A DNA stretch of 50,184 bases from Gammaproteobacteria bacterium (lineage in GTDB: Bacteria > Pseudomonadota > Gammaproteobacteria > Chromatiales > Chromatiaceae): assembly GCA_030065815.1 (NCBI GenBank), contig JASJCU010000006.1:1-50184 (forward strand), written 5' to 3'. Each line of letters opens with the position of its first letter. The stretch's first letter is position 1. The position numbers were made by a program, and so were the translations under genes. Shown here in pieces: positions 31,502 to 35,752 of the stretch. Below the pieces are notes generated by a model. That model was not told the DNA's origin. It ran no database searches and saw only the letters and a program-made list of their open reading frames with translations.

Positions 31502-31515
31502 TTGATCTGGGTCAA
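31502..31515 (-). promoter_or_regulatory. Anr/FNR box upstream of ccoN
   Basis: TTGAT-CTGG-GTCAA, a perfect match to the Anr consensus TTGATNNNNGTCAA. It lies about 100 bases before the ccoN start. If the box centre is at -41.5, the -10 would fall on TAGTCT (minus strand, 31474-31479), a fair match. This predicts activation of ccoNOQP by FNR at low oxygen. Confidence 0.82.
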
Positions 31516-31561: not shown

Positions 31562-31575
31562 TTGAGCCAGATCAA
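31562..31575 (-). promoter_or_regulatory. Second FNR-like box overlapping the fnr stop codon
   Basis: TTGAG-CCAG-ATCAA, one mismatch from the FNR consensus TTGATNNNNATCAA. Its centre is 60 bases upstream of the first box, and it overlaps the stop codon of fnr (31572-31574). Tandem boxes may give stronger or biphasic control of ccoN. Confidence 0.5.
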
Positions 31576-32336
31576 CTGGGTGGGGTTGCCTGATGCGGTT
31601 CGCAGCTTGCCGGATGGCCGACCATCGCGCGTAGCCGTTCGAGGTCGAGTATCTGCACGTGCTTGCGTTCGACCTTGAGGATGCCTTCGTCCTGGAAGCG
31701 CGTGAACAGGCGGCTCACGGTCTCCAGCGCCAGCCCGAGATAGCTGCCGATCTCCTGCCGCGACATGCTGAGGAAGAAATCGGTCGCGGAGAATCCGCGT
31801 CGCTTGAATCGTTCCGACAGGCTGATCAAAAACGACGCAACGCGCTCTTCGGCCGTGCTGCGACCGAGCAGTGCCATCATCTCGGCGTCGTGGCTGATCT
31901 CTTTGCTGAGCAGGCGGAACATCTGGTGCTGCAGGCTGGGGATGTTGGACGAAAGGTCTTCAAGCCGGTCGAAAGGCAGCTCGCAGATCGCCGTCGTCTC
32001 GAGCGCCCGGGCACCACAACCGTGCTGGCCGTCCTGGATCGCGTCGAGGCCAAGCACCTCGCCCGGCAGATGGAAGCCGACGACCTGCTCGTCGCCCTCG
32101 TTGGTCTGCGTAAACGTCTTAACGGCGCCGGTCTTGACGACATATAAATGGCGGAAAGCGTCGCCGGCACGGAACAGGTGATCGCCGCGCTGCAGCGGCC
32201 GATTGCGCTTGACGATGGCGTCGAGGCGGTCGACGTCTTCCGGGCGCAACCCCATGGGCAGGCACAGGGTCGAGAGGGTGCAGTCGCGACAGGCGACTTT
32301 GATCTTGTCGAGCGAAATCACATTCTTGCTAGGCAC
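31572..32336 (-). CDS. fnr: FNR/Anr-type oxygen-sensing transcription regulator
   Basis: A 254-residue CRP/FNR family regulator. Cys16, Cys19, Cys25 (CRDCTLSTLC) and Cys107 (QHGCGAR) match the four ligands of the oxygen-labile 4Fe-4S cluster. The C-terminal helix-turn-helix (SRQEIGSYLGLALETVSRLF) keeps Glu205, Ser208 and Arg209, the residues that read the TTGAT half-site. It becomes an active dimer without oxygen. The start is GTG at 32336. It lies just upstream of ccoNOQP in the same direction, and an Anr box precedes both. Confidence 0.95.
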   Translation of the reverse strand: MPSKNVISLDKIKVACRDCTLSTLCLPMGLRPEDVDRLDAIVKRNRPLQRGDHLFRAGDAFRHLYVVKTGAVKTFTQTNEGDEQVVGFHLPGEVLGLDAIQDGQHGCGARALETTAICELPFDRLEDLSSNIPSLQHQMFRLLSKEISHDAEMMALLGRSTAEERVASFLISLSERFKRRGFSATDFFLSMSRQEIGSYLGLALETVSRLFTRFQDEGILKVERKHVQILDLERLRAMVGHPASCEPHQATPPS

Positions 32337-32398: not shown

Positions 32399-32412
32399 TT
32401 GACCTCGATCAA
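32399..32412 (-). promoter_or_regulatory. Anr box upstream of fnr (autoregulation)
   Basis: On the minus strand TTGAT-CGAG-GTCAA, a perfect Anr match, 62 bases before the fnr start. TTGATC can serve as a -35 with CACAAT 17 bases later, which would make the box repressive; a class II activator position is the alternative. An inverted repeat CGCACAA/TTGTGCG (32373-32391) covers that -10. Confidence 0.75.
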
Positions 32413-32430: not shown

Positions 32431-32459
32431 AAAAAAAACCCGCCCTGTACAGGACGGGT
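32431..32459 (-). terminator. Rho-independent terminator of the sulfur globule-like gene
   Basis: On the minus strand a roughly 10-base-pair stem (ACCCGTCCTG/CAGGGCGGGT, one mismatch) is followed by eight T. It begins 18 bases after the stop of the gene at 32477 and ends 19 bases before the Anr box of fnr, so the two units are insulated. Confidence 0.9.
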
Positions 32460-32476
32460 CCTTGCGGCCGTGAGAC

Positions 32477-32917
32477 CTACTGGCCGGCGGCCGGTGCCTC
32501 CGGTGCCGGCGGCGGAGCCGGCGGCGCGCCATAACCGTATCCCGGACCGTAGCCGCCCCACGGGCCGCCGCCGTAGCCGTAACCCGGGCCGCCGTAGCCG
32601 CCCCAGTACGGTGCGCTGTAGTTGTAGCCACGGCCCCAGCCGTCGCCGGCGCCATAGCCGCTGCCGTAGCCGCGCATGTTGGTGTTGCCGCGGCCGCTCA
32701 TGTTCATGCTGAAATCGCCTCCACCGGCAGCGTCGCCCGAACCCCAGCCGTCACCCCAGCCCGACGTGTTGCCGTAGCCCAGGCCGCGGTTGTAGTTGTT
32801 GTCCCAGCCACTGCCACCCCAGGGACCGCCGCCCCACCAGGCGCTGGCCGAGGACATGGTTAATGCAGCGGCGCCAGCGATGGCCGCCGCGCCGAATGCT
32901 TTTGCGAACTTCCGCAT
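32477..32917 (-). CDS. Glycine-rich exported protein, putative sulfur globule protein
   Basis: A 146-residue secreted protein. Residues 1-26 are a clear Sec signal ending in SASA, with cleavage before WWGGGPWGG. The mature part is very rich in Gly, Tyr, Trp and Asn, has repeated GYG and GYGYGG units, a central [13 protein letters not shown] segment, and a Pro/Ala-rich tail ([15 protein letters not shown]). This pattern matches the small structural proteins that coat periplasmic sulfur globules in Chromatiaceae (Sgp family). AAGGAG stands nine bases before the start, and a strong terminator follows, as expected for an abundant product. A generic Gly-rich structural protein is the alternative. 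No other sulfur gene is in the window. Confidence 0.65.
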
Positions 32918-33015
32918 ATTGGATGACTCCTTAAGTGCGTTGTCGAGTAAGAGTGGTGTGCTTCCCTGCAGCGACGATACCCGCCTTGGTTACAAAGAGA
33001 GCAGTCGGCACAGAT

Positions 33016-33051
33016 CTCGGGTTCCATTGTTCCCGAGCACACCTCACTATA
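33016..33051 (-). promoter_or_regulatory. Candidate -10 and leader hairpin of the sulfur globule-like gene
   Basis: On the minus strand TATAGT (33046-33051) is a good -10 but has no good -35. About nine bases later CTCGGG (33032-33037) pairs with CCCGAG (33016-33021) around ten bases. If used, the leader would be roughly 120 bases and begin with a hairpin, a layout seen in stable mRNAs. Confidence 0.35.
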
Positions 33052-33090
33052 GACCAAGCGATAGGCAACCACTAGCAGAATTTGGTCGTC

Positions 33091-33257: not shown

Positions 33258-35752
<2,495 letters not shown>

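Follow-up and report, generated by a model that had tools for sequence, protein, structure and literature searches.

Among the closest known counterparts of the protein considered here are the sulfur globule proteins of Allochromatium vinosum, described as exported proteins that form a coat on periplasmic sulfur, with partial redundancy and in varying number (PMC10386293, PMC3368242, PMC10892978, PMC11267869); SgpA, SgpB, SgpC and SgpD are given as Alvin_1905, 0358, 1325 and 2515, respectively, in PMC10386293. The window, the whole 50,184-nucleotide stretch of DNA analysed here, comes from an uncultured gammaproteobacterium and contains a gene, sgp (32477..32917, minus strand). Its product is very probably an exported structural component of the envelope around sulfur globules, and the organism has several such Sgp-type proteins. 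This reading rests on homology, gene content, conserved location, co-occurrence with dsr genes and the joint absence of sgp and dsr from one congener. What the window protein would have in common with SgpA-D, as described in PMC10386293, is a role as an exported coat protein, specified by more than one gene in a gammaproteobacterium that carries dsr; it agrees with the A. vinosum picture in the respects examined here, its own Pfam score excepted. By analogy with A. vinosum, the signal peptide would carry Sgp to the periplasm, where its Gly/Tyr/Trp-rich and apparently unfolded mature chain would, together with its paralogs, coat sulfur formed from sulfide or thiosulfate; export, globule location and coat assembly are all transferred from that organism, and the reverse Dsr pathway would later oxidise the stored sulfur in the cytoplasm. 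This uncultured lineage thus likely stores sulfur as coated globules, although no report of globules in this organism was found among open papers. The kind of protein is known; what is new is a neighbourhood kept across much of the family, a probable scar of gene loss and a candidate regulated leader.

The sgp reading frame begins with ATG and encodes 146 amino acids. Its hydrophobic N-terminus ends in SASA|WWGG and, read by eye and in accord with the aligned N-termini of its relatives, is predicted to be a Sec signal peptide of about 26 residues that is cut after SASA (32840..32917, minus strand). The 120-residue mature protein contains no cysteine; glycine accounts for 35.8% of it, tyrosine for 10.8%, proline for 10.0%, alanine for 8.3%, tryptophan for 7.5% and asparagine for 6.7%. 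The sequence-only reading had called it almost entirely Gly, Tyr, Trp and Asn, which overstates the case, those four residues making up 61% of it. The ribosome-binding site and terminator that had also been claimed are both there, the first good and the second strong: TAAGGAG lies at 32927..32933 (minus strand), with its AAGGAG 9 nt ahead of the ATG, and an intrinsic terminator between sgp and fnr (32431..32460, minus strand) combines a hairpin of ten pairs with a tract of eight T, of which two pair within the stem, and has a predicted energy of -16.8 kcal/mol (z -4.18; none of 200 shuffles was equally stable). No confident fold is predicted for the protein (mean pLDDT 45.4, pTM 0.13), no PDB relative reached E 1, and an NCBIfam search gave no Sgp family match and a single irrelevant weak one. 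The presence of an SGP gene at the same site in 16 of 30 fnr loci (see below) and of six other matches in the same genome argues that this reading frame is not there by chance.

The sole Pfam match of the window protein is to the SGP family (PF17228), at 21.2 bits over residues 27-143, which is below the gathering score of 26.7 bits. Composition alone cannot account for this score, since none of ten shuffles of the mature sequence, each placed behind the unchanged signal, gave any Pfam match; low-complexity sequence does inflate similarity scores. The genome matches the window protein at seven places, counting the window gene itself, and one of the seven is truncated at a contig end. Four of these paralogs lie above the PF17228 cut-off (63.6, 63.4, 51.2 and 32.7 bits) and two others below it (18.5 bits, and 23.3 bits for the copy cut by the contig end), and the window protein is 64-69% identical to the paralogs that score 63 bits. 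The six relatives that occupy the same site in other members of the genus range from no match through 15.5, 16.2, 22.3 and 22.5 to 40.1 bits; the one that passes is from G008 and is 79% identical to the window protein. The SGP genes next to fnr in nine other genera are all above the cut-off (33.8-76.3 bits). Given the paralogs and the same-site relative that exceed the cut-off, and shuffles that score nothing, the window protein is, by sequence, a divergent member of the SGP family by descent, even though it falls under the curated score itself.

The features it shares with the Pfam family are a signal-like start with WWGG after it, the core GDF-x-M-x-M-S-G, a Gly/Tyr/Arg segment and a tail rich in Pro/Ala. 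It differs in a Gly/Trp N-terminal stretch that is longer than in most aligned rows and in a T-N-M-R-G-Y-G-x-G-Y-G segment, which is common to the window protein, its genus relatives and three of the four paralogs aligned. Glycine-rich exported proteins occur in many roles, and a protein that is Sgp-like in composition only could do another job, for example at the cell surface or in a biofilm matrix; the sub-cut-off score and the lack of a confident fold would be in keeping with this. We think it very unlikely, as shuffles of the same composition match nothing, the relative at the same site that is 79% identical to it does pass the cut-off, and SGP genes track dsrA across genomes, with one congener, G007, lacking both.

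The globule envelope reading is supported: the sequence-only reading would have been refuted by a lack of similarity to Sgp families together with a lack of sulfur-oxidation genes, and both the similarity and the genes are there. The genome contains a dsrA gene (516 bits) that is cut by the end of contig C92, and the end of contig C110 carries dsrB, dsrE, dsrF, dsrH, dsrC, dsrM, dsrK and a dsrL-like gene in one row; dsrB, truncated at the contig end, scores below its cut-off, as does dsrM, and the dsrL-like gene encodes an NAD(P)-binding protein that we take to be dsrL by its position. A soxB gene is present (716 bits, scored with its neighbours in the frame). The dsrEFH and dsrL genes mark the oxidative Dsr pathway, and the order of the row is that of A. 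vinosum. By its gene content this dsr cluster is of the oxidative type and should be able to oxidise stored sulfur.

The association between SGP and sulfur oxidation genes was examined in 56 genomes: the window's own, eight congeners, another 26 from the family and a single representative of each of 21 further families in the class. Of these genomes, 33 have PF17228 above cut-off and 32 have dsrA above cut-off; with both required to be strictly above cut-off, 29 genomes have both, four SGP only, three dsrA only and 20 neither. When dsr genes broken at contig ends and judged present by hand (G010, G019, G033 and G021) are counted, the table becomes 32 both, one SGP only, four dsr only and 19 neither. 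The corresponding numbers for SGP and soxB are 27, 6, 6 and 17 (Fisher p, uncorrected for kinship, 3.7e-10 for dsr with broken genes counted and 6.8e-5 for soxB). Restriction to the 44 genomes with completeness of 90% or more and contamination of 5% or less gives SGP/dsr tables of 23, 2, 3 and 16 by the strict count and 25, 0, 3 and 16 with broken genes counted. Within the family alone (35 genomes) the numbers are 30, 1, 1 and 3 for dsr with broken genes counted (p 0.0024) and 25, 6, 2 and 2 for soxB (p 0.22), again with kinship uncorrected. Three genomes, G007, G009 and G036, have soxB above cut-off and no dsrA, and none of them has SGP. Exceptions to the dsr association are G005 (80% complete), which has SGP and in which dsrA was not found, and four genomes with dsr and no SGP: G035, G048 and G053, one from each of three other families, with dsrA, and the 40%-complete G021. 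Across the 56 genomes sampled, then, SGP genes track dsrA closely and soxB loosely, and may serve as a marker that follows dsr more closely than sox.

The immediate surroundings of sgp are also conserved. Pfam confirms both flanks, so that the position between fnr and pyrG given by the sequence-only reading is real: fnr (31572..32336, minus strand) lies downstream on the same strand and encodes a CRP/FNR regulator with a C-x2-C-x5-C motif near its N-terminus, a cysteine spacing like that of E. coli FNR, and pyrG (33270..34922, plus strand) encodes CTP synthase and is divergent from sgp. Matches to fnr were found in 44 of the 56 genomes, and the 30 best of these 44, one per genome, were read. 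In 16 of the 30 loci, the gene immediately upstream of fnr, in the same orientation, is an SGP gene; these 16 represent ten genera (seven genomes of the window's genus, its own included, and nine further genera). The pyrG gene is on the other side of sgp in 15 of the 16, including all seven genus genomes in which fnr and SGP were both found and eight of the nine further genera; in the remaining one, G012, it was not found within 7 kb. The ninth member of the genus, G005, which is 80% complete, gave no fnr match. Nine of the 30 loci have pyrG adjoining fnr without an SGP gene in between, and in five neither pyrG nor SGP is near fnr, two of these being on contigs under 5 kb. Two of the reconstructed genomes have split genes here: fnr of G001 (L019/L096) and pyrG of G002 (L016/L063) are each in two overlapping pieces, which are either frameshifts or assembly errors in those MAGs.

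Among open papers, none was found that joins a sulfur globule protein with FNR or a sulfur globule with CTP synthase, and the matches listed, mostly titles and the starts of abstracts, include no description of the sgp-fnr neighbourhood.

For the history of this linkage, a tree was built from 116 distinct Sgp sequences from the fetched loci, a set smaller than all PF17228 matches, of which 111 remained after those shorter than 95 aa were dropped; it has few columns and many open forks. On it, the fnr-linked label requires seven changes against a mean of 15.2 when shuffled (none of 500 shuffles was as low), yet the starred branches force at least three changes, and on the FNR tree the label requires eight changes, which 65 of 500 shuffles match or better. 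The fnr-linked Sgp thus cluster in the Sgp tree, but the trees do not establish a single origin for them; paralogs may have been exchanged, or the linked gene lost or gained more than once. We give an even chance to the idea that pyrG, sgp and fnr stand together as a passive remnant of an ancestral arrangement, with no functional link between sgp and fnr. The nine loci where pyrG and fnr adjoin without sgp, the count of changes on the FNR tree and the terminator that separates sgp from fnr in the window speak for it. On the other side, gene orders without use tend to break, and this one is found in ten genera even though genomes of the family carry up to seven PF17228 matches, mostly elsewhere.

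The sequence-only reading suggested that proximity to fnr could couple sulfur storage to respiration. That idea is only half supported: the neighbourhood is conserved, but direct control by FNR finds no support. The window as a whole has ten FNR boxes (TTGAYNNNNRTCAA) with at most one mismatch, where 2.25 are expected (none of 100 shuffles had as many), and two of them are exact, at 31502-31515 and 32399-32412. The latter is the palindrome TTGACCTCGATCAA (32399..32412, listed on the plus strand), which lies in front of fnr and downstream of the sgp terminator. An additional one-mismatch box is at 31562-31575, so that boxes flank fnr on both sides, towards ccoNOP and towards fnr itself. All 16 linked loci have a box 62-433 nt after the sgp stop codon (14 exact and two with one mismatch), whereas the 450 nt upstream of sgp contain no exact box in any of them; in three of the 16 this stretch holds a one-mismatch site, at places that differ between the loci. 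These positions after the sgp stop suggest that FNR acts on its own gene rather than directly on sgp, and FNR probably controls both its own gene and the cco genes. That sgp is nonetheless a direct FNR target, with low oxygen switching on the coat protein together with the cbb3 oxidase, might be supposed from its place beside fnr in ten genera and from the exact boxes nearby; in view of where those boxes lie and of the intervening terminator we regard it as unlikely, and direct FNR control was rejected as the default.

For its own expression sgp has a putative promoter, a probably structured 5' leader and a terminator. Upstream of sgp the genus genomes share the order GCTAGTG, about 16 nt, TCTATAGT (TCTATATT in G006) and a leader of about 130-145 nt. 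The putative -10 element, CTATAGT (33046..33052, minus strand), is exact in six of the seven genus genomes that have the gene and is CTATATT in G006. The upstream element GCTAGTG (33070..33076, minus strand) is identical in all seven and is not a sigma-70 -35 box, and a sigma-70 scan found no promoter at these elements.

The leader (32958..33046, minus strand) is conserved and probably structured. An alignment of the seven genus leaders folds as two hairpins in which 97.3% of pair cells are standard (one of 500 shuffles was as high), compared with 35-45% when the partners are slid; the alignment was fitted to the structure, so these pair counts are flattered. Two of the 21 pairs are changed on both sides, a count reached by 56 of 500 shuffles; the covariation score is reached by nine of 500, and the covariation term of RNAalifold is small. 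Single full leaders are unremarkable against their shuffles (z -1.51 to +1.23 for the seven), and the trimmed window leader has z -2.64, with none of 200 shuffles as stable. The case for structure is accordingly made by the alignment and the trimmed window leader, not by folds of single full leaders. A model of the leader searched against 48 sources (from 178 loci, plus the window) gave convincing matches at this locus in the seven genus genomes and nowhere else, the best other match having E 0.76. An Rfam search at E values up to 5 yielded five matches, of which none came close to the gathering score of its family or overlapped the leader, so assignment to a known RNA family was rejected.

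CsrA recognises a GGA in a hairpin loop together with a second GGA at the ribosome-binding site. An A-N-GGA is present in the loop of the first hairpin in all seven leaders (for G001 this requires that an unpaired closing base be assigned to the loop), with a chance by shuffling of 0.06-0.33 per loop, the loops being delimited by hand and the sequences related and hence not independent. All seven also have GGA at the same place in the Shine-Dalgarno sequence of sgp, and csrA is present in the window's genome. In these features the sgp leader is like CsrA-controlled structured leaders; no Rfam family matches it at the gathering score. The loop motif, the GGA at the ribosome-binding site and the presence of csrA make translational control of sgp by CsrA through this leader a reasonable lead. 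Passages in open papers that treat both subjects gave no link between CsrA and sgp control. Together, the structured leader and the conserved place of sgp beside fnr open the regulation of the globule coat to testing.

The promoter also bears on the one congener that lacks the gene. G007, a member of the same genus with a 94% complete genome, matches neither of the two SGP models nor dsrA but has soxB. The gap between its pyrG and fnr is about 432 bases and retains a pyrG-side block (up to 82% identity, E 5e-13) together with a perfect 14-nt copy of the sgp promoter, CTTGGTCTATAGTC, including the -10 element; alone this copy reaches only E 0.04-0.13, but it is in the expected place and order. 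A further stretch aligns to the region after sgp; the best E is 7e-5, and with most genomes the alignment is weak. Both the sgp gene and GCTAGTG have disappeared from the gap, and the fnr frame is open, the flagged stop codon being at the very C-terminus. Loss of sgp at this locus, with a promoter scar still visible, is the probable explanation, and this apparently natural loss fits a loss of globule storage together with dsr; alternatively, the remnant could be a promoter that now serves something else. Complete thiosulfate oxidation without storage, by way of SoxC, was rejected as an explanation of the dsr-less state of G007, whose match to SoxC is only 178 bits against a cut-off of 420 and is similar to that of the window's genome (193.6 bits).

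The genus also encodes a long protein, apparently exported, that combines PDWV-type repeats with an SGP domain and, at its C-terminus, a domain of the OmpA family; it may be the most interesting item encountered here. In G006 (L076:5229-7172) both Pfam domains are above cut-off (SGP 35.1 and OmpA 89.1 bits), and in G002, G003, G004 and G005 (L190, L191, L192 and L193) the OmpA part matches on the strand and in the frame of the SGP part. The copy in the window's own genome (contig C142, L007:460-1824 and L194) ends just after the SGP domain; beyond it are fragmentary, weaker OmpA matches, one of which lies in a different frame, and this indicates either decay or an assembly error; the G001 copy (L189) has no OmpA match. 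Such a protein could tether globules to peptidoglycan. No description of an SGP-OmpA fusion was found among the open-paper matches listed, which are mostly titles and the beginnings of abstracts.

One may speculate, with the odds clearly against so complete a picture, that these elements belong together: sgp, though next to fnr, would be separately controlled, and its unusual promoter (GCTAGTG ... CTATAGT) and genus-specific two-hairpin leader would let CsrA, rather than FNR, set the amount of coat protein and so tie sulfur storage to carbon status, while the SGP-OmpA protein of the genus would pin the globules to the cell wall.

Other SGP-domain proteins in the loci read are of a different build. 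Paralogs at L015, L017, L020, L023, L030 and L074 have the SGP domain followed by a Gln/Ala/Glu-rich, coiled-coil-like tail, which recalls the coiled coil proposed for SgpD, and each of them adjoins a short SGP gene; the likely short partner in the window's own genome (L004) is cut by a contig end. Finally, an SGP match is present on a contig binned as an alphaproteobacterium of the Aestuariivirgaceae (JANQIR010000116.1, L022), with query residues and identity equal to those of the Chromatiales MAG PL25a (L023), and this contig is probably mis-binned.
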